A stretch of DNA of 32,240 bases, taken from Bacillota bacterium. GTDB lineage: Bacteria > Bacillota > Dethiobacteria > DTU022. Position 1 is the first letter of the stretch, and every line of letters begins with the position of its first letter. Where the stretch lies: positions 1 to 32,240 of the forward strand of contig VGTO01000016.1 of assembly GCA_016874655.1 (NCBI GenBank), read 5' to 3'. The position numbers were made by a program, and so were the translations under genes. The notes beneath the pieces were generated by a model. The model did not search any database, was not told where the DNA came from, and saw only the letters and a program-made list of their open reading frames with translations. This document shows positions 26,727-32,240 of the stretch, in pieces.

Positions 26727-26984
26727 ATGAAGAATGCTATTACTGCTAACGAACTGAAAACCAAAGGGGTTTCGGCCATTGATATGGTAGTAAGAGAATC
26801 TGAAGAAGCTGTGCTTACAGTCAGGGGCAAGAGTACCTATGTGGTAATGCCAATCGAAAAATATAACTATTACCGTGAGTGCGAGCTGGAAACAGCTATT
26901 AACAAAACACTTCAGGAAATCAAGCAGGGTAAGTATGTTCTAGAAACGGTTGACGAACATATCAAGAGGATCACTGATGCCTAA
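26727..26984 (+). CDS. Phd/YefM-family antitoxin
   Basis: The 85-residue protein has the Phd/YefM fold. The N-terminal DNA-binding and dimer part ITANELKTKGVSAIDMVV is followed by the strands AVLTVRGKSTYVVMPIEKYNYY, very typical of the family. The C-terminal half (residues 50-85) is a charged helix expected to wrap and block the toxin. A GGAGGGAGG ribosome site lies 8-10 bp upstream. The toxin start lies inside its last codons (8-bp overlap), the standard antitoxin-first arrangement. It should repress its own promoter, where a palindrome is present. Confidence 0.9.
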   Translation: MKNAITANELKTKGVSAIDMVVRESEEAVLTVRGKSTYVVMPIEKYNYYRECELETAINKTLQEIKQGKYVLETVDEHIKRITDA

Positions 26985-27249
26985 GATAATTTATACTGAT
27001 AGCTACATTAAAAAAGCAGAAGCGTTTCTCAAAAAACATCCCGAAATGATTGGCCAATATGAAAAAACATTAAGATTGTTAGAACTCAACCCCGGTCACC
27101 CTTCGCTTAAATTGCACAAGCTAAAAGGCAAGCATACCCAACTTTATGCGGTAGCAATAAACATTAGCTATCGCATCAGTTTACTGTTCATGATTCAGGA
27201 TAATAACGTTGTTCCAGTTAATTTTGGTCCACATGACGAAGTATATTAA
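26977..27249 (+). CDS. RelE/YafQ-like mRNA interferase toxin
   Basis: About 90 residues in the RelE/ParE fold: two N-terminal helices (YIKKAEAFLKKHPEMIGQYEKTLRLLELNP), then strands containing HKLKGKHTQLYAVAINISYRISLLF. The C-terminus ends in NFGPHDEVY, the usual G-x-H-D-x-V-Y tail of RelE/YafQ/HigB-like toxins. The open frame starts at 26950, but ATG 26977 is six bp after AAGAGGA and begins MPKIIYTDSY, the family's normal start, so I use it. It likely cleaves ribosome-bound mRNA; the exact RelE subfamily is not determined. It overlaps the antitoxin gene by 8 bp. Confidence 0.87.
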   Translation: MPKIIYTDSYIKKAEAFLKKHPEMIGQYEKTLRLLELNPGHPSLKLHKLKGKHTQLYAVAINISYRISLLFMIQDNNVVPVNFGPHDEVY

Positions 27250-27385
27250 ATTGACTATTTGAAAAGCAAGCCTTCAGCTGTACGTTAATGACCAAAGAAG
27301 ATGCTGAGAGAAAAGGGTTGTTGATAACCTTCATTACAGGACCGGACCCCAAAATCTGCATAATTGCCCCCATAATTTTAGCTAT

Positions 27386-27479
27386 GCGGAGAAAAACCTC
27401 TATATTTAGCGCATTATCTGCGGAGATTAGTTGACAACACAGAGGCTTAGTGCTATATTTGTTGCAAAATATGCGGAGA
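27386..27479 (+). repeat. three GCGGAGA direct repeats around the fic promoter
   Basis: Identical heptamers start at 27386, 27420 and 27473 (distances 34 and 53 bp). The second is five bp before the -35 and the third lies between the -10 and the start codon, followed by ATAAATA before the ATG. Copies 1 and 3 share the longer ATGCGGAGAA. This arrangement suggests operator sites for autoregulation by the Fic protein's own DNA-binding tail. The first 130 bp of the 237-bp gap (27250-27385) hold nothing I recognise. Confidence 0.65.
27431..27459 (+). promoter_or_regulatory. consensus promoter of the fic gene
   Basis: TTGACA at 27431-27436, a 17-bp spacer, TATATT at 27454-27459; the predicted start of transcription near 27466 leaves a leader of about 20 bases. 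No strong Shine-Dalgarno is present (GCGGAGAATAA precedes ATG), and the third GCGGAGA repeat doubles as the only purine-rich ribosome site. Confidence 0.8.
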
Positions 27480-27486
27480 ATAAATA

Positions 27487-28590
27487 ATGTATATTTATGA
27501 AAATCCTAATTGGCCAGAGTTTAAGTGGGAAAATGAAAATATTTTACCCCTGCTATCTGCTGTACGCTACCAACAAGGAACTATTGTAGGGAAAATGGGA
27601 GCTTTAGGTTTTGAATTAAAGAACCAGGCGAATCTTGAGATCCTAACAATTGATATCTTAAAAACGACTGAAATAGAAGGAGAGATGCTAAATCCGGATC
27701 AAGTCCGTTCTTCAATCGCCCGGCGATTGGGGTTAGAAGTATCAGGTTTAGTCAGTTCCGATAGACATGTAGATGGTGTTGTAGATATGATGCTTGATGC
27801 AACAAGAAATTATGACAAAGAGTTAAACAAAGATCGACTTTTCTCATGGCATGGTTCACTGTTTCCGGCCGGCTACAGTGGAATTAGTAAAATAGTAACT
27901 GCTAACTGGAGGGATGATGCAAAAGGGCCGATGCAAGTTGTTTCAGGTCCAGTCGGTAAAGAAAAAGTTCATTATCAAGCTCCCGCTGCAGAGAAACTTG
28001 ATCAAGAAATGAAACTATTCTTTGAGTGGTTTAACCACCTTCAGGATATTGATTTAGTAATAAAGGCAGGCATTGCACATCTCTGGTTTGTAACAATTCA
28101 TCCTTTTGAAGATGGAAACGGCAGGATAGCCAGAGCCTTAACAGATCTGATCTTGGCGCAATCCGACAAGCAACCGTATCGTTTTTACAGTATGTCTGCC
28201 CAAATACGAAAAGAAAGAACCAATTACTATAAAATGCTCGAAAAAACGCAAAAAGGGCCGCTGGATATAACCGAATGGCTAGAGTGGTTTTTGCGTTGTC
28301 TTATGCATGCACTGGAAGCTTCTGAAACAATACTTGTTAATGTTATTTTCAAGCATAAGTTCTGGCTCCAGCATGCTTCAAAGATTAACAATGCCAGGCA
28401 AAGAAAAGTCCTGAATTTGCTGCTGGATGGCTTTGATGGAAAACTAAATACAACAAAATGGGCTAGAATTTGCAAATGCTCGCAAGACACAGCCTTAAGA
28501 GATATTAAGGATTTAATGAATAAACAGATTCTAGATCAGATGCCCGGTGGCGGTAGAAGTACGAGCTATGACCTGGTGACAAAGAAATAG
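27487..28590 (+). CDS. Fic-domain AMP-transferase with N-terminal inhibitory helix and C-terminal winged helix
   Basis: The 367-residue protein begins MYIYENPNWPEFKW, the DUF4172-type N-terminus seen on many stand-alone Fic proteins. The inhibitory motif (S/T)xxxE(G/N) is present as TTEIEG with Thr60 and Glu64, which makes it class II, self-inhibited by an N-terminal helix. The catalytic loop is HPFEDGNGR with His205 and Arg213, fully conserved, so it should transfer AMP from ATP to a target protein hydroxyl. The last 75 residues (ARQRKVLNLLLDGF through KWARICKCSQDTALRDIKDL) look like a winged helix-turn-helix. No separate antitoxin is adjacent, which fits self-inhibition. Repeats flank its promoter. 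Target is unknown. Confidence 0.92.
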   Translation: MYIYENPNWPEFKWENENILPLLSAVRYQQGTIVGKMGALGFELKNQANLEILTIDILKTTEIEGEMLNPDQVRSSIARRLGLEVSGLVSSDRHVDGVVDMMLDATRNYDKELNKDRLFSWHGSLFPAGYSGISKIVTANWRDDAKGPMQVVSGPVGKEKVHYQAPAAEKLDQEMKLFFEWFNHLQDIDLVIKAGIAHLWFVTIHPFEDGNGRIARALTDLILAQSDKQPYRFYSMSAQIRKERTNYYKMLEKTQKGPLDITEWLEWFLRCLMHALEASETILVNVIFKHKFWLQHASKINNARQRKVLNLLLDGFDGKLNTTKWARICKCSQDTALRDIKDLMNKQILDQMPGGGRSTSYDLVTKK

Positions 28591-28675
28591 CAATTTTATC
28601 ATTTGCTCAAACTTTAAAGGAACTAAGGCTTGTTGAAACCTTTCGCAGACAGGAAGTAGAGGAGGCGCATTAATC

Positions 28676-29362
28676 ATGCCTGACCGGTCCACCCAGTTTT
28701 TAATCGCTGTCAACTTGATCAACATAGTGATGGCTATTATTTTTAAATGGAGCATCTATGATGTGATGCTTGTTTACTGGTTTCAAAGTGTAAGCATCGG
28801 TATCTTTACTTTCTATAAGCTTTACAGCTACCCGATTGAAAAGATTAATCAGGAGATGGAAGGCGGTAAGGCCTTGGAAGTAAATGATCTGGCTGTCACA
28901 AACCCAATAGCGGCTAAAATATTTATAGCCGGTTTTTTTGCACTGCATTACGGGTTTTTTCATCTGGTCTACATTATTTTTATTGTCGGCTTTGCCAGTA
29001 GCGAAGGGTTTCCTTTGGATCTTATTGGTGGCTTGGTTGGGGCACTACTATTCTTTGCCAACCATTTTTACTCGTACCTCGTTTATAAGGATGAAGATAA
29101 TAATTTAACAGAAACCTATAATGGAAACAGCCAAAGCTCTTCAGGGCCCAGTATTGCTGATCTATTCAGCAAACCTTACACCAGGATTATCCCCATTCAT
29201 TTAACCATTATCGCCGGAGGAGCAATCAGCCATCTCTTAACCGGAGGCCCATTCCAAAACATTATAATTCTTTTATTTTTTATGGGCTTAAAAACATTGA
29301 TGGACGTCATAGCCCACAAAAAGAAACATAAACAGATCCTATTCGCAGGTCAAGACGGGTAG
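28676..29362 (+). CDS. DUF6498-like multi-pass membrane protein
   Basis: The 228-residue protein has about six hydrophobic stretches (LIAVNLINIVMAIIF, DVMLVYWFQSVSIGIFTFY, ALHYGFFHLVYIIFIVGF, LIGGLVGALLFFANHFYSYLV, IIPIHLTIIAGGAISHLL, NIIILLFFMGLKTLMDVIAH). The YW-x(3)-S-x(2)-IGIF-x(2)-K pattern in the second helix and the HYGFFHLVY helix are those of DUF6498 proteins as I remember them. Function is unknown for the family. GAGGAGG lies about 10 bp before the ATG. The 85-bp gap after the Fic gene has no promoter that stands out, so read-through from fic is possible. The same gap has a short frame (ending ...RRQEVEEAH) that may be a leftover C-terminus. Confidence 0.72.
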   Translation: MPDRSTQFLIAVNLINIVMAIIFKWSIYDVMLVYWFQSVSIGIFTFYKLYSYPIEKINQEMEGGKALEVNDLAVTNPIAAKIFIAGFFALHYGFFHLVYIIFIVGFASSEGFPLDLIGGLVGALLFFANHFYSYLVYKDEDNNLTETYNGNSQSSSGPSIADLFSKPYTRIIPIHLTIIAGGAISHLLTGGPFQNIIILLFFMGLKTLMDVIAHKKKHKQILFAGQDG

Positions 29363-29369
29363 TCTAGCT

Positions 29370-29392
29370 GACCCCTTTGTCGACCCCTTTGT
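29370..29392 (+). repeat. two tandem GACCCCTTTGT units
   Basis: GACCCCTTTGT occurs at 29370-29380 and again at 29382-29392 (12-bp period) in the 40-bp gap between two convergent genes. Similar GACCCC-type strings occur at 30494 and 27346, hinting at remnants of a dispersed repeat family. It has no hairpin, so a terminator role is unlikely. Confidence 0.5.
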
Positions 29393-29402
29393 TCTTTGTA
29401 TG

Positions 29403-30050
29403 CTAGCTTAAATCCAGATAAGCCATCAATTTTGTCTGTTCTTCGAGAAAATAGTTTTTCAATGCTTGCCAGTCAAACTCGATGAACATCTTCGGTAAGG
29501 GTTCACTTTCAGCATCATCAAAGTAGGAGAGGCTTTTGATAATGTGGTAGTTGTTTATCTGCTTTTCTGGAAATTTCGCAGGCATGTCTTTAATAACTTG
29601 CTGAAGGCTTATATCGTGTTTAGCCAGGACATATAGATCTATGAAATCCTTGGCTGAACCGCGGTGACTTAATGCGGCAAGTTTCATTACTGCAATATCC
29701 TTTAACGATGCCAACTTAAGTGCGGGCATTTCAGATGTAGTTACTAAATCATTGAGCAAAGGGTTTGGGTAATAAAGCCAGGTTATCCGCAGGCCGCCAA
29801 ATATTCCATGTAGTGTTCCCTTCGCGGCGTCACTAATTTCGAAAGTATCCAGACCTGACAGCTGACGAGCCAGCTGTTCAGGGTCAAAGTGATCGGCACA
29901 AAACCAGTCCAGATCTATTGATTGGCGATGTCCTAAGATAAGAGCAAGAGCTGTTCCGCCGGCCAGGTAACTGCCGGGTAAAGGCAAATGGTTAACTATC
30001 AACTCTAATAAAGCCTTTCGTTTTTCGCCAAGCGTAGACCAGTGCAGCAA
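29403..30050 (-). CDS. AbiEii/AbiGii-family nucleotidyltransferase toxin
   Basis: The 215-residue protein carries the nucleotidyltransferase motif YLAGGTALALILGHRQSIDLDWF (about residues 28-50), where GGTALAL and the Asp-x-Asp pair mark the active site. The later motif VMKLAALSHRGSAKDFIDLYVL (about 120-141) matches the K-x-A-x(5)-K-D-x-x-D-L pattern of AbiEii-type enzymes. Such toxins transfer nucleotides, for MenT members to tRNA acceptor ends, and act in phage defence or as toxin-antitoxin modules. Start is TTG at 30050, preceded by GAAGGAGGAAG at good spacing. It lies within the 3' end of the upstream gene with 46 bp of overlap, so the pair is coupled. The classic AbiEi antitoxin is absent; the upstream DUF6922-like protein takes that place. 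Confidence 0.85.
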   Translation of the reverse strand: MLHWSTLGEKRKALLELIVNHLPLPGSYLAGGTALALILGHRQSIDLDWFCADHFDPEQLARQLSGLDTFEISDAAKGTLHGIFGGLRITWLYYPNPLLNDLVTTSEMPALKLASLKDIAVMKLAALSHRGSAKDFIDLYVLAKHDISLQQVIKDMPAKFPEKQINNYHIIKSLSYFDDAESEPLPKMFIEFDWQALKNYFLEEQTKLMAYLDLS

Positions 30051-30295
30051 AGCTCTTCCTCCTTCAGGTTAAAATAGTTTTGCCAGCACCTTGCAGTCTT
30101 AAGTGTAAGGTTGCGTCTTACTTTCACTGCATTTTTTATGGTTTCTCTGTCATACTGGTCAAACAGCCAGTCTAAAGCCCGATCGTTGCCTTCATTGAGG
30201 ATCCGGCTGATAATAAAGTAACGGTGCTGTTTAAGTTCGAGTTTGCCAAGTTCAACATCCCAAAAATATACCTTCAGATAATCTGGCAAAATCAA
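30005..30295 (-). CDS. DUF6922-like protein, probable partner/antitoxin of the AbiEii-like toxin
   Basis: This 96-residue protein begins MILPDYLKVYFWDVE and contains RYFIISRILNEGNDRALDWLFDQYD, then VKVRRNLTLKTARCWQNYFNL. I recall this pattern as the DUF6922 domain commonly found just before AbiEii-type nucleotidyltransferases. It is small, basic in the second half and probably acts as antitoxin or adaptor. Start is TTG, 9 bp after AAAGGTGG on the minus strand. An extended -10 (TGGTATAAT) sits about 35 bp before it. The 46-bp overlap with the toxin is unusually long and contains the toxin's ribosome site. The antitoxin role is inferred only from arrangement. Confidence 0.75.
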   Translation of the reverse strand: MILPDYLKVYFWDVELGKLELKQHRYFIISRILNEGNDRALDWLFDQYDRETIKNAVKVRRNLTLKTARCWQNYFNLKEEELCCTGLRLAKNERLY

Positions 30296-30326
30296 TTCTA
30301 AACACCACCTTTAAATAGTCGATAAT

Positions 30327-30335
30327 ATTATACCA
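30327..30335 (-). promoter_or_regulatory. extended -10 promoter of the DUF6922-AbiEii pair
   Basis: On the minus strand TGGTATAAT (TG-n-TATAAT) is a perfect extended -10; the start codon follows about 32 bp downstream. No clear -35 is seen. It is followed by ATTATCGACTATTTAAAGG, which includes the ribosome site. Confidence 0.55.
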
Positions 30336-30509
30336 TATTTTTACACAGCATATAAATATCGGCGCAAAAAGGGCAGGTACGTAATATAAGAAAAATTGAT
30401 TTTGGCAGGATTGGGCATAAGATTGGACAGCAGATGTGACATTTCAAGACCTGACTCCGTTTGCACTCTTTGTCGGTGCTGACGCCTTCTTGGACCCCTT
30501 ATGCTTAGC
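30336..30509. other. non-coding stretch with REP-like remnant
   Basis: No gene is seen between the promoter of the DUF6922 gene and the end of the PIN gene. From about 30436 to 30500 the plus strand reads GTGACATTTCAAGACCTGAC, then TCCGTTTGCACTC, TTTGTCGGTGCTGACGCC and TTGGACCCC. The phrase CAAGACCTGAC(C/T)CCG resembles termini I have seen next to REP-associated or IS200-like transposases, so this may be the scar of a small mobile repeat. The identification is from memory only. Confidence 0.35.
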
Positions 30510-30917
30510 TCAGGGTTCTTTTCTGGATACGTCGGGTAAGAGGTCAAAGTGCTTGTCATAGCTGTAGATCGTGTCTATGTTGCGGCCAAGCATGATTATA
30601 CTATTGTAGGCATCGATGTAATCAATATTTTCTGTTTGGAAGAGCTCCATAATATCGGGAAATACATTTTTACAAGGGTAGTAAAGATTTTTTATTGTTA
30701 GCAGAGGCATAGAAATCTCATAGATTTCATCCGGCTTTAAATTATAGGTTTTCGGAGATTGCAGCACCCAGATTAGTTCAGCTATGACCAGATCGGTAGT
30801 ATAAAGCTTAAGCTCTCCTTCGGCTGCACTTTGTAGAAGTTGTTGACATTTGGCTGCTTTTTCTGGATCGTCCTTAGTCAGAAAGCGAAGAAAGATATTT
30901 GTATCAATAAACTGCAT
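30510..30917 (-). CDS. PIN-domain ribonuclease toxin (VapC family)
   Basis: A complete 135-residue PIN domain: Asp5 (MQFIDTNIFLRF), Glu47 (VIAELIWVL), Asp102 (DYIDAYNSIIM) and Asp121 (YSYDKHFD) form the acidic metal-binding site, so it should be an active ribonuclease. The ATG comes two bases after the stop of the AbrB-type antitoxin gene and follows AAAAGGGG, so the two form a VapBC operon. Targets of VapC toxins are usually tRNA or rRNA; none can be predicted here. Length is normal. Confidence 0.9.
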   Translation of the reverse strand: MQFIDTNIFLRFLTKDDPEKAAKCQQLLQSAAEGELKLYTTDLVIAELIWVLQSPKTYNLKPDEIYEISMPLLTIKNLYYPCKNVFPDIMELFQTENIDYIDAYNSIIMLGRNIDTIYSYDKHFDLLPDVSRKEP

Positions 30918-30919
30918 AA

Positions 30920-31177
30920 CTAACCCCTTTTGCTTCCTTTGTCACCTGCCCACTCCCGGGCTATGCGGCGGTGATCTTCGTGGGTGCCGGCAGGTTTAAG
31001 GTTCTTCAATACACCGTAAACGTCTTCCAGGCCAACTTTTACCGGCCTGATTACTACCTCATCTCGCTCGTTGACAGCAAACTCGACCTTTTCACCATAC
31101 TCGATCTCTAATTTCTCTCTGATTACCATTGGTATTGTGACTTGTCCTTTTCTGGTTACAGTGCTATATTTTTTCAT
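30920..31177 (-). CDS. AbrB/MazE-type antitoxin (VapB)
   Basis: The 85-residue protein has an N-terminal swapped-hairpin SpoVT/AbrB DNA-binding domain: STVTRKGQVTIPMVIREKLEIEYGEKVEFAVNE in short form shows the T-x-K-G-Q-V-T-I-P signature (residues 6-16). It is followed by a charged C-terminal tail that should bind the PIN toxin. It is antitoxin-first, 2 bp before the toxin gene. AGGAG lies 7 bp upstream of the ATG, and its leader holds three GTAATAC iterons and a promoter, so autoregulation is very likely. Confidence 0.92.
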   Translation of the reverse strand: MKKYSTVTRKGQVTIPMVIREKLEIEYGEKVEFAVNERDEVVIRPVKVGLEDVYGVLKNLKPAGTHEDHRRIAREWAGDKGSKRG

Positions 31178-31178
31178 A

Positions 31179-31221
31179 GTAATACTCCTGACTTAAGTAA
31201 TACTTAGAATAAGTGTAATAC
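31179..31221. repeat. three GTAATAC iterons with 18-bp period
   Basis: GTAATAC (GTATTAC in the direction of transcription) occurs at 31179-31185, 31197-31203 and 31215-31221, exactly 18 bp apart. Copies one and two extend to a shared AGTAATACT. The third overlaps the -10, the second lies in the leader, and the first sits between ribosome site and start codon of the AbrB-type gene. They are probable operator sites of the VapBC complex. Confidence 0.85.
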
Positions 31222-31240
31222 ATTTTGATAGATGCGTCAA
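31212..31240 (-). promoter_or_regulatory. predicted promoter of the AbrB-PIN operon
   Basis: On the minus strand TTGACG (31240-31235), a 17-bp spacer and TACACT (31217-31212). The -10 overlaps the upstream-most GTAATAC iteron, a usual layout for repression. Confidence 0.6.
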
Positions 31241-31280
31241 ATTGTTAGCACCAGGCTCCAATTATGTCTCTTATACAAGA

Positions 31281-31312
31281 CAAACTCCCGCTAAAAGATA
31301 GTCGGGGCTTGT
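31281..31312. other. imperfect hairpin between divergent VapBC promoters
   Basis: The arms CAAACTCCCGCT and AGTCGGGGCTTG can pair with ten of twelve positions (including wobbles) around a loop of about seven bases. It lies between the divergent promoters of the AbrB-PIN and ribbon-helix-helix-PIN operons. No T-run follows on either strand, so it is not a standard terminator; it may insulate the two modules or be incidental. Confidence 0.3.
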
Positions 31313-31354
31313 TAAATAATTATAAGTAATGTATAATACTGGTGTATACAGTAT
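31309..31354 (+). promoter_or_regulatory. promoter and operator dyad of the ribbon-helix-helix-PIN module
   Basis: TTGTTA (31309-31314), 17-bp spacer, TATAAT (31332-31337). The dyad ATACTG-N7-CAGTAT (31336-31354) starts within the -10 and covers the predicted start of transcription, which fits repression by the ribbon-helix-helix antitoxin. Confidence 0.65.
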
Positions 31355-31377
31355 AACACGCAGGGAGGAGTTTCAGC

Positions 31378-31635
31378 ATGGAAAGAACTCAAATATACCT
31401 GACCAGGGAGCAAAAAAAGGCGCTCAAAACAATCGCTGCCCAGAAACAAACACCGCTTGCCGAGGTTGTCCGCGAAGCGGTGGAGCAGTATATTACTGAA
31501 CAAAAACCTTCTGCGGCAGAGAGGATGGAGAAGGCCAGTGGGCTCTGGAAAGACAGGCAGGAACTTGATTCAGCTGCCTACGAGAGAGAACTGCGCCAGG
31601 AACTCAACAAAAGGCTGGAAGGGTTTGAGCAATGA
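31378..31635 (+). CDS. ribbon-helix-helix antitoxin (VapB/CopG type)
   Basis: The 85-residue protein starts ERTQIYLTREQKKALKTIAAQKQTPLAEVVREAVEQYI, a textbook ribbon-helix-helix: the beta strand TQIYL contacts DNA, followed by two helices. The C-terminal 40 residues are charged and helical and should neutralise the toxin. AGGGAGGAG lies about 7 bp before ATG. The toxin gene overlaps its end by 4 bp (ATGA). The dyad over its promoter is the expected autoregulatory site. Confidence 0.92.
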   Translation: MERTQIYLTREQKKALKTIAAQKQTPLAEVVREAVEQYITEQKPSAAERMEKASGLWKDRQELDSAAYERELRQELNKRLEGFEQ

Positions 31636-32015
31636 AAACGGCTCTTTTTGACACAAACATCTTGATTGATTATTTAAAAGGCAAGCCTGAGGCAACCTCT
31701 CTTTTTAAGCAGAGTCTAGAAGAGGGACAAATCCTCGCCTGTTCTTTAATTTCAAAAGTGGAGCTATTAAGCGGCGCTCGGCCAGGCGAGGAACAGGTCT
31801 TGCGTGATTTTCTTGATGCCTTCGATCGAATCGATTTGGATGATATAATCGCCGAAGCAGCAGGACGTTACATGAACCTCTACAGAAAAAGCCATGGCCT
31901 CAATATAGCTGATGCCATTATTGCCGCCTCAGCCCTGGCGAGGGGGGCGGTTCTTTATACCTTAAACGACAGGCATTTCCCAATGAACGATATTAAGGTT
32001 ATTAATCCTTATTAA
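31632..32015 (+). CDS. PIN-domain ribonuclease toxin (VapC family)
   Basis: A 127-residue PIN protein with acidic residues Asp7 (FDTNILIDYL), Glu44 (SKVELLSGAR), Asp94 (NIADAIIAA) and Asp113 (LNDRHF). All expected metal-binding positions are filled, so it is probably active. It forms a VapBC pair with the ribbon-helix-helix gene just upstream. It is only distantly similar to the other PIN protein of the window (shared motifs, different lengths and spacing), so the two modules are not a recent duplication. Confidence 0.93.
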   Translation: MKTALFDTNILIDYLKGKPEATSLFKQSLEEGQILACSLISKVELLSGARPGEEQVLRDFLDAFDRIDLDDIIAEAAGRYMNLYRKSHGLNIADAIIAASALARGAVLYTLNDRHFPMNDIKVINPY

Positions 32016-32049
32016 GAAGTTTTATGCATGACTTGCTGCAAAACCGGGA

Positions 32050-32085
32050 TTGACAGTTTTACGTGCTAGTAATACTATGTATTAC
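32050..32085 (+). promoter_or_regulatory. promoter with overlapping GTAATAC inverted repeat
   Basis: TTGACA (32050-32055), 17-bp spacer, TACTAT (32073-32078): near consensus. The dyad GTAATAC-TAT-GTATTAC (32069-32085) has perfect 7-bp arms and covers the whole -10. Its heptamer is the same one that is repeated before the AbrB-PIN operon about 850 bp away. Confidence 0.8.
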
Positions 32086-32105
32086 GTAAGAAGGAGGGGA
32101 TTAGT

Positions 32106-32240
32106 GTGCCAACGATATCTTTAAGATTAAGCGAAAAAGATAACAAGTTGATAAAACAATATGTCTCTCTTCATAATATTACAGTATCCGAACTGTTTAG
32201 AAACGCGGTAATTGATCTGATCGAAACAGAGATTGATATT
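32106..32240 (+). CDS. ribbon-helix-helix antitoxin (RelB/DUF6290-like), cut by window end
   Basis: From GTG 32106, 8 bp after AAGGAGGGG, the frame stays open to the end of the window (45 codons). It reads MPTISLRLSEKDNKLIKQYV, then SLHNITVSELFRNAVIDLIE. The strand TISLRLS and the two following helices are typical of ribbon-helix-helix antitoxins of the RelB/DUF6290 group, usually about 75-90 residues and followed by a RelE-type toxin. The partner must lie beyond the window. The strong promoter with a dyad over its -10 supports an autoregulated toxin-antitoxin operon. Confidence 0.82.
   Translation, partial: MPTISLRLSEKDNKLIKQYVSLHNITVSELFRNAVIDLIETEIDI

Follow-up and report, generated by a model that had tools for sequence, protein, structure and literature searches.

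Three equally spaced GTAWTAC dyads as the probable autorepression operator of an AbrB-PIN toxin-antitoxin operon

In the window, by which we mean the whole stretch of 32,240 nucleotides that was analysed, three exact copies of GTAATAC are present on the plus strand at 31179-31185, 31197-31203 and 31215-31221, with a period of exactly 18 bp, before an operon that encodes an AbrB-type antitoxin and a PIN-domain toxin. Judging from the sequence and from the leaders of related operons, it is very probable that the three heptamers serve as the autorepression operator of this vapBC-type operon, with one antitoxin dimer at each heptamer and, plausibly, neighbouring dimers tied together by the toxin. 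The array is a variant of a well-known type of self-regulation.

The operon and its leader

The genes and the leader elements, ordered by coordinate, are the following.

30510..30917, minus strand: toxin gene, 135 aa, PIN domain (VapC-like); Pfam PF01850, E 1.4e-11
30920..31177, minus strand: antitoxin gene, 85 aa, AbrB/MazE (swapped-hairpin) DNA-binding domain; Pfam PF04014, E 1.5e-10; TIGR01439 lp_hng_hel_AbrB, E 7.9e-12
31179..31185, minus strand: site 1, GTATTAC, between RBS and ATG, one base from the ATG (from the sequence and the seven-leader alignment)
31185..31189, minus strand: RBS AGGAG, its last base being the first base of site 1 (from the sequence)
31197..31203, minus strand: site 2, GTATTAC, in the leader near the predicted transcription start (from the sequence and the seven-leader alignment)
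31212..31217, minus strand: predicted -10, TACACT, a consensus match with a 17-bp spacer to the -35
31215..31221, minus strand: site 3, GTATTAC, overlapping the predicted -10 (from the sequence and the seven-leader alignment)
31235..31240, minus strand: predicted -35, TTGACG, a consensus match

The initial annotation had recognized an AbrB-PIN toxin-antitoxin operon, and the matches to PF04014, PF01850 and TIGR01439 agree with this. The antitoxin gene, with its ATG at 31177 on the minus strand, is directly upstream of the toxin gene, and a gap of two bases separates them (31177-30920, then 30917-30510). In the toxin, the acidic residues D5, E47, D99, D102 and D121 are invariant among five aligned homologues; a comparison of the toxin profile with the PDB gave no sequence match. 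A PIN toxin gene with an adjoining antitoxin of the AbrB/MazE fold in one operon is the composition of a type II VapBC system with an AbrB-type antitoxin and, as is also characteristic of VapBC, a candidate operator site overlaps the promoter, since site 3, recognized as a sequence match, overlaps the predicted -10.

On the coding (minus) strand the heptamer reads GTATTAC in all three copies, and the layout is TTGACG-N13-GTATTAC-ACTTATTCTAA-GTATTAC-TTAAGTCAGGA-GTATTAC-T-ATG. The array spans 43 bp, with N11 spacers that differ from each other in sequence, in a leader that is A+T-rich. The placement of the heptamers proposed at the outset, with one on the -10, one in the leader and one in the gap from RBS to ATG, was confirmed in the sequence. 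An alternative promoter candidate on the same strand, TATACA-18-TATAAT at 31348-31319, would give a longer leader and lies inside the control region of the divergent operon. The heptamer GTA-W-TAC has dyad symmetry around the central base and, because it is palindromic save for that base, the orientation of a copy carries almost no information. The earlier description of an iterated direct-repeat operator therefore holds as regards the regular array, but not as regards the word direct, and the array is better called three equally spaced dyads than direct-repeat iterons.

GTAATAC is the sole 7-mer in the window with three equally spaced copies when spacings of 8-40 bp are scanned, and no equally spaced 7-mer triples occurred in 40 Markov versions of the window. 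The pair GTAWTAC-N9..13-GTAWTAC is confined, within the 2.13-Mb genome, to the AbrB-PIN operon. Of 398 genomes in the phylum, just one other holds the exact triple, and there it reads as a coding repeat of the Asp/Glu/Tyr type. In viral contigs at least 120 stretches matched the triple pattern. Among the matches listed, the loci that were read contain 192, of which 189 fall in open frames (coding repeats, 18 bp being six codons) and none stands before an AbrB gene.

Spacing and word in related operons

Related leaders were gathered by genome searches with the antitoxin and with the toxin alignment, covering many phyla. The toxin alignment yielded 80 loci, whereas scans of genome and viral contigs based on the antitoxin gave no hits. 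For 48 non-redundant leaders of the toxin family (leaders at least 65% identical having been removed, with no further correction for phylogeny), we computed a lag spectrum of near-exact repeats (6 of 7 positions) at lags from 10 to 28, with shuffles as the control. A repeat at lag 19 is present in 22 of the 48 leaders, as compared with a shuffle mean of 5.2 (z 8.5), and one at lag 18 in 15 of the 48 against a mean of 5.5 (z 4.4), while none of the remaining lags in this range exceeds z 2.0. For other genes on these contigs, 4-10% of the leaders have repeats at lags 18-19, and 2-15% of the A+T-rich ones. Where a leader holds at least two exact copies of GTANTAC, 11 of 13 adjacent distances are 17-20 bp, and the two that remain are 36 (2x18) and 51 (3x17); random placement gives a mean of 1.4 distances within 17-20 bp and never reached 11 in 20,000 runs.

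Within the family the spacing thus ranges from 17 to 20 bp, and the window array, at 18 and 18 bp, follows the same pattern. Other members carry other words, namely GTAAG in a large deltaproteobacterial/Nitrospirae group, TTCATTGA, CTTTAC/GTAAAG and CAGTCA, many of these members having steps near 18-19 bp. An example with a different word is the leader L143 (antitoxin start near base 1218), which has GTTCATTGA, GTTCATTGA and an inverted TCAATGAAC at 19-bp steps. The step appears to be more conserved than the word, which varies by clade, and on these comparisons a spacing of 18-19 bp is the rule within the toxin family and not an oddity. The initial annotation had called an iterated operator of this kind unusual; as regards the 18-19 bp spacing, this is overstated. 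It had also proposed an alignment of orthologous leaders as a check, with absence of the repeat and its spacing as the refuting outcome; the comparison did not refute the proposal, and related operons do keep the repeat and its spacing.

Five further leaders fit three sites at 18 bp: L043 and L044 from Bacillota, L012 from another class of the phylum, L108 from Dadabacteria and L116 from a Methanocellales archaeon. Together with the window and L009 they make up an ungapped alignment of seven leaders; these were picked for fitting, and the lag spectrum is the less biased evidence. L009 is a relic locus, in which a good 18-bp triple is intact, the antitoxin is frameshifted and no toxin was found behind it. 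All seven aligned leaders have three sites with 11-bp separations. At the 21 sites the counts per position are G 21/21, T 18, A 18, W 21, T 20, A 18 and C 16, and the central base flips freely (12 A, 9 T); L043, L044 and L012 each have one or two degenerate copies among their three. Identity between leaders is 66-80% in the sites as against 45-52% in the spacers, and the site frame scores 6.29/7 at offset 0 as against at most 3.1 at other offsets. An Actinomycetota MAG (L119) shows three exact GTAWTAC and a degenerate fourth at 17-bp steps, some 25-85 bases before the antitoxin start. For the two closest orthologues, L004 (contig C72 of G035) and L007 (C242 of G033), the contig begins inside the antitoxin gene and the leader falls outside the data. 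More toxin fragments of the family occur at contig ends (C248 of G035, C171 of G032), which suggests repeated or variable copies.

The reach of the spacing rule is bounded by a set of 18 leaders of plasmid AbrB antitoxins, mostly from Proteobacteria, which was fetched after the hypothesis had been formed. These show no peak at 18-19 bp, with lag 18 in none of the 18 and lag 19 in one. A lag-21 repeat is present in five of them; inverted GTANTAC pairs at a distance of 21 bp occur in four, and CTTAC/GTAAG inverted repeats in several. A rule of 18-19 bp for every AbrB antitoxin is therefore rejected; operator geometry varies from clade to clade, and the spacing rule belongs to the clade of the toxin. 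A related idea was that the loop residue before KGQ in the antitoxin is a code for the DNA word. In the discovery set GTANTAC goes with T-[RKQVI] loops (17/23 versus 5/56, p 2e-8), but plasmid antitoxins with VTAKGQ, VTSKGQ and LTTKGQ also carry GTANTAC. This proposal was rejected, and the association probably reflects shared ancestry.

A proposed model for autorepression

The sequence comparisons establish the sites, their spacing, the conservation of both position and spacing, and the association with AbrB-PIN operons. From this arrangement we infer a mode of working that comprises binding by the cognate proteins, bridging by the toxin, registers of occupancy and repression. Antitoxins of the AbrB fold bind DNA as dimers, and each GTA-W-TAC dyad would be read by one such dimer. 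Dimers of the PIN toxin would join antitoxin dimers in a larger assembly that has one DNA-binding head at either end, and it is because of this tie that neighbouring antitoxin dimers would be held about 18 bp apart. A two-headed complex could occupy sites 1 and 2 or sites 2 and 3; alternatively, several complexes might be chained. In this way the -10, the start site and the region transcribed first would be covered, and transcription would be blocked. Site occupancy would then report the antitoxin:toxin ratio. The cooperative loading of several complexes, which the initial annotation had suggested, is plausible and a reasonable reading of the sequence.

Few AbrB-type VapBC operators have been characterised. 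That the step is kept while the word changes suggests that the geometry of the complex, and not base reading, is the conserved constraint, and sequence alone can then serve to locate the operators of such operons. With its odd number of sites, the array lends itself to testing how a complex with two heads is loaded. More tentatively, and with considerable doubt, we can imagine that the complex in this clade acts as a molecular ruler on open-ended arrays of two to four dyads with a fixed 17-20 bp step and a clade-dependent word, that an odd number of dyads produces overlapping registers, and that a shared heptamer permits cross-talk between neighbouring TA operons with unrelated antitoxin folds.

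Neighbouring genes and alternative explanations

The interval 26727-32240 is a dense run of TA-like genes. It includes a Phd/YefM-like antitoxin with a small downstream ORF, a Fic/DUF4172 protein, DUF6922 with an AbiEii-like nucleotidyltransferase, the AbrB-PIN and RHH-PIN operons and a DUF6290 ORF truncated where the contig ends. The RHH antitoxin and PIN toxin (31378-32015) are divergent to the AbrB-PIN operon. An inverted repeat, GTATAATACTG / CAGTATAACAC, at 31331-31359 falls on the predicted -10 of the RHH-PIN operon and is likely that operon's own operator. At 32069-32085 a GTAATAC-TAT-GTATTAC dyad lies over a predicted -10, and the DUF6290 (RHH-like) ORF begins at 32106. This dyad matches the form GTANTAC-N3-GTANTAC of the CopA_SO operator (PMC8706911). 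Within 900 bp, then, one heptamer precedes both an RHH-like gene, where its step is 10 bp, and an AbrB gene, where its step is 18 bp, so that cross-talk between the two systems via the shared heptamer may be possible.

These neighbours raise the question of whether the array is bound by another regulator, either a global AbrB-like protein or the antitoxin of a neighbouring TA system such as the RHH-like protein at 32106. GTANTAC is indeed also a word of RHH-antitoxin operators, as in Shewanella, where CopA_SO binds GTANTAC-N3-GTANTAC (PMC8706911), and the RHH-style element before the DUF6290 ORF is in the same window. However, the centres in the RHH arrangement are 10 bp apart and not 18, and the 18-bp array accompanies AbrB-PIN operons across phyla, which makes another regulator improbable. 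A CopA_SO-type RHH operator was rejected for 31179-31221, where the spacer is N11, the N3 form being in another operon at 32069-32085. Plasmid replication iterons were likewise rejected, as the repeats are in a TA leader and the genes examined, which run from 26.7 kb to the end, include no Rep.

The position of site 1 between RBS and ATG, together with the weak hairpins that the dyads could form, might be taken to mean that the site at the start codon adds translational control, either through RNA structure or through a protein on the mRNA. Extra control of translation had been raised in the initial annotation; it finds no support in the 5' mRNA, which has no unusual fold (the leader folds no better than shuffles, z = 0.02), and no Rfam match was found in the window, so that RNA-level control was discarded. 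Moreover, antitoxins of the AbrB fold are known to bind double-stranded DNA (PMC3384007), and site 1 abuts the start codon because the 18-bp period runs through a short leader. We give translational control a very slim chance. Finally, in an A+T-rich leader the repeats could be functionless chance words or the product of a recent tandem duplication. The 11-bp spacers do not match each other, however, which makes recent duplication unlikely and led to its rejection; the layout recurs in distant operons of the seven-leader alignment, the Markov windows hold no equally spaced triple and the pair is unique in the genome. Such an origin is scarcely credible, and an autorepression operator remains the reading that we prefer.

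Comparison with known systems

The likeness to mazEF of Escherichia coli lies in the AbrB-fold antitoxin and in an operator where three related motifs adjoin and the complex can engage either the first pair or the last pair (PMC3920265). MazEF differs in its MazF-type toxin, its "alternating palindrome" with another word and spacing, and its two promoters. ParE_SO-CopA_SO of Shewanella oneidensis shares the repeated heptamer word GTANTAC (PMC8706911) but has a ribbon-helix-helix antitoxin and two copies at N3 spacing, with centres 10 bp apart. Plasmid AbrB-VapBC loci of Alphaproteobacteria (Azospirillum, Rhizobium, Bradyrhizobium) also have GTANTAC in the leader and an AbrB antitoxin, with a VapC-type toxin annotated downstream in most; they carry two sites, a GTAATAC followed by a GTATTAC at a distance of 21 bp, whereas the window has three at 18 bp.

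VapBC of Shigella flexneri and S. sonnei likewise combines an AbrB-fold antitoxin with a PIN toxin and has sites on promoter elements (PMC3384007, PMC11796401). In Shigella the AbrB-type VapBC forms a hetero-octamer that carries one DNA-binding domain at either end, and its two operator sites lie over the -10 and -35 (PMC3384007). Each of these sites is drawn as a pair, in contrast to the three single dyads at 18 bp that extend here from the -10 to the start codon. The 18-bp period had been singled out in the initial annotation as a non-integral number of helical turns, but this is nothing special, since the DNA-binding domains of the Shigella octamer are also a non-integral helical distance apart, rotated by 56 degrees (PMC3384007). 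If an octamer forms here, the two systems would have in common two DNA-binding heads with non-integral turns between them and, by analogy, the logic of the two-headed Shigella octamer would explain the regular step of about 18 bp.
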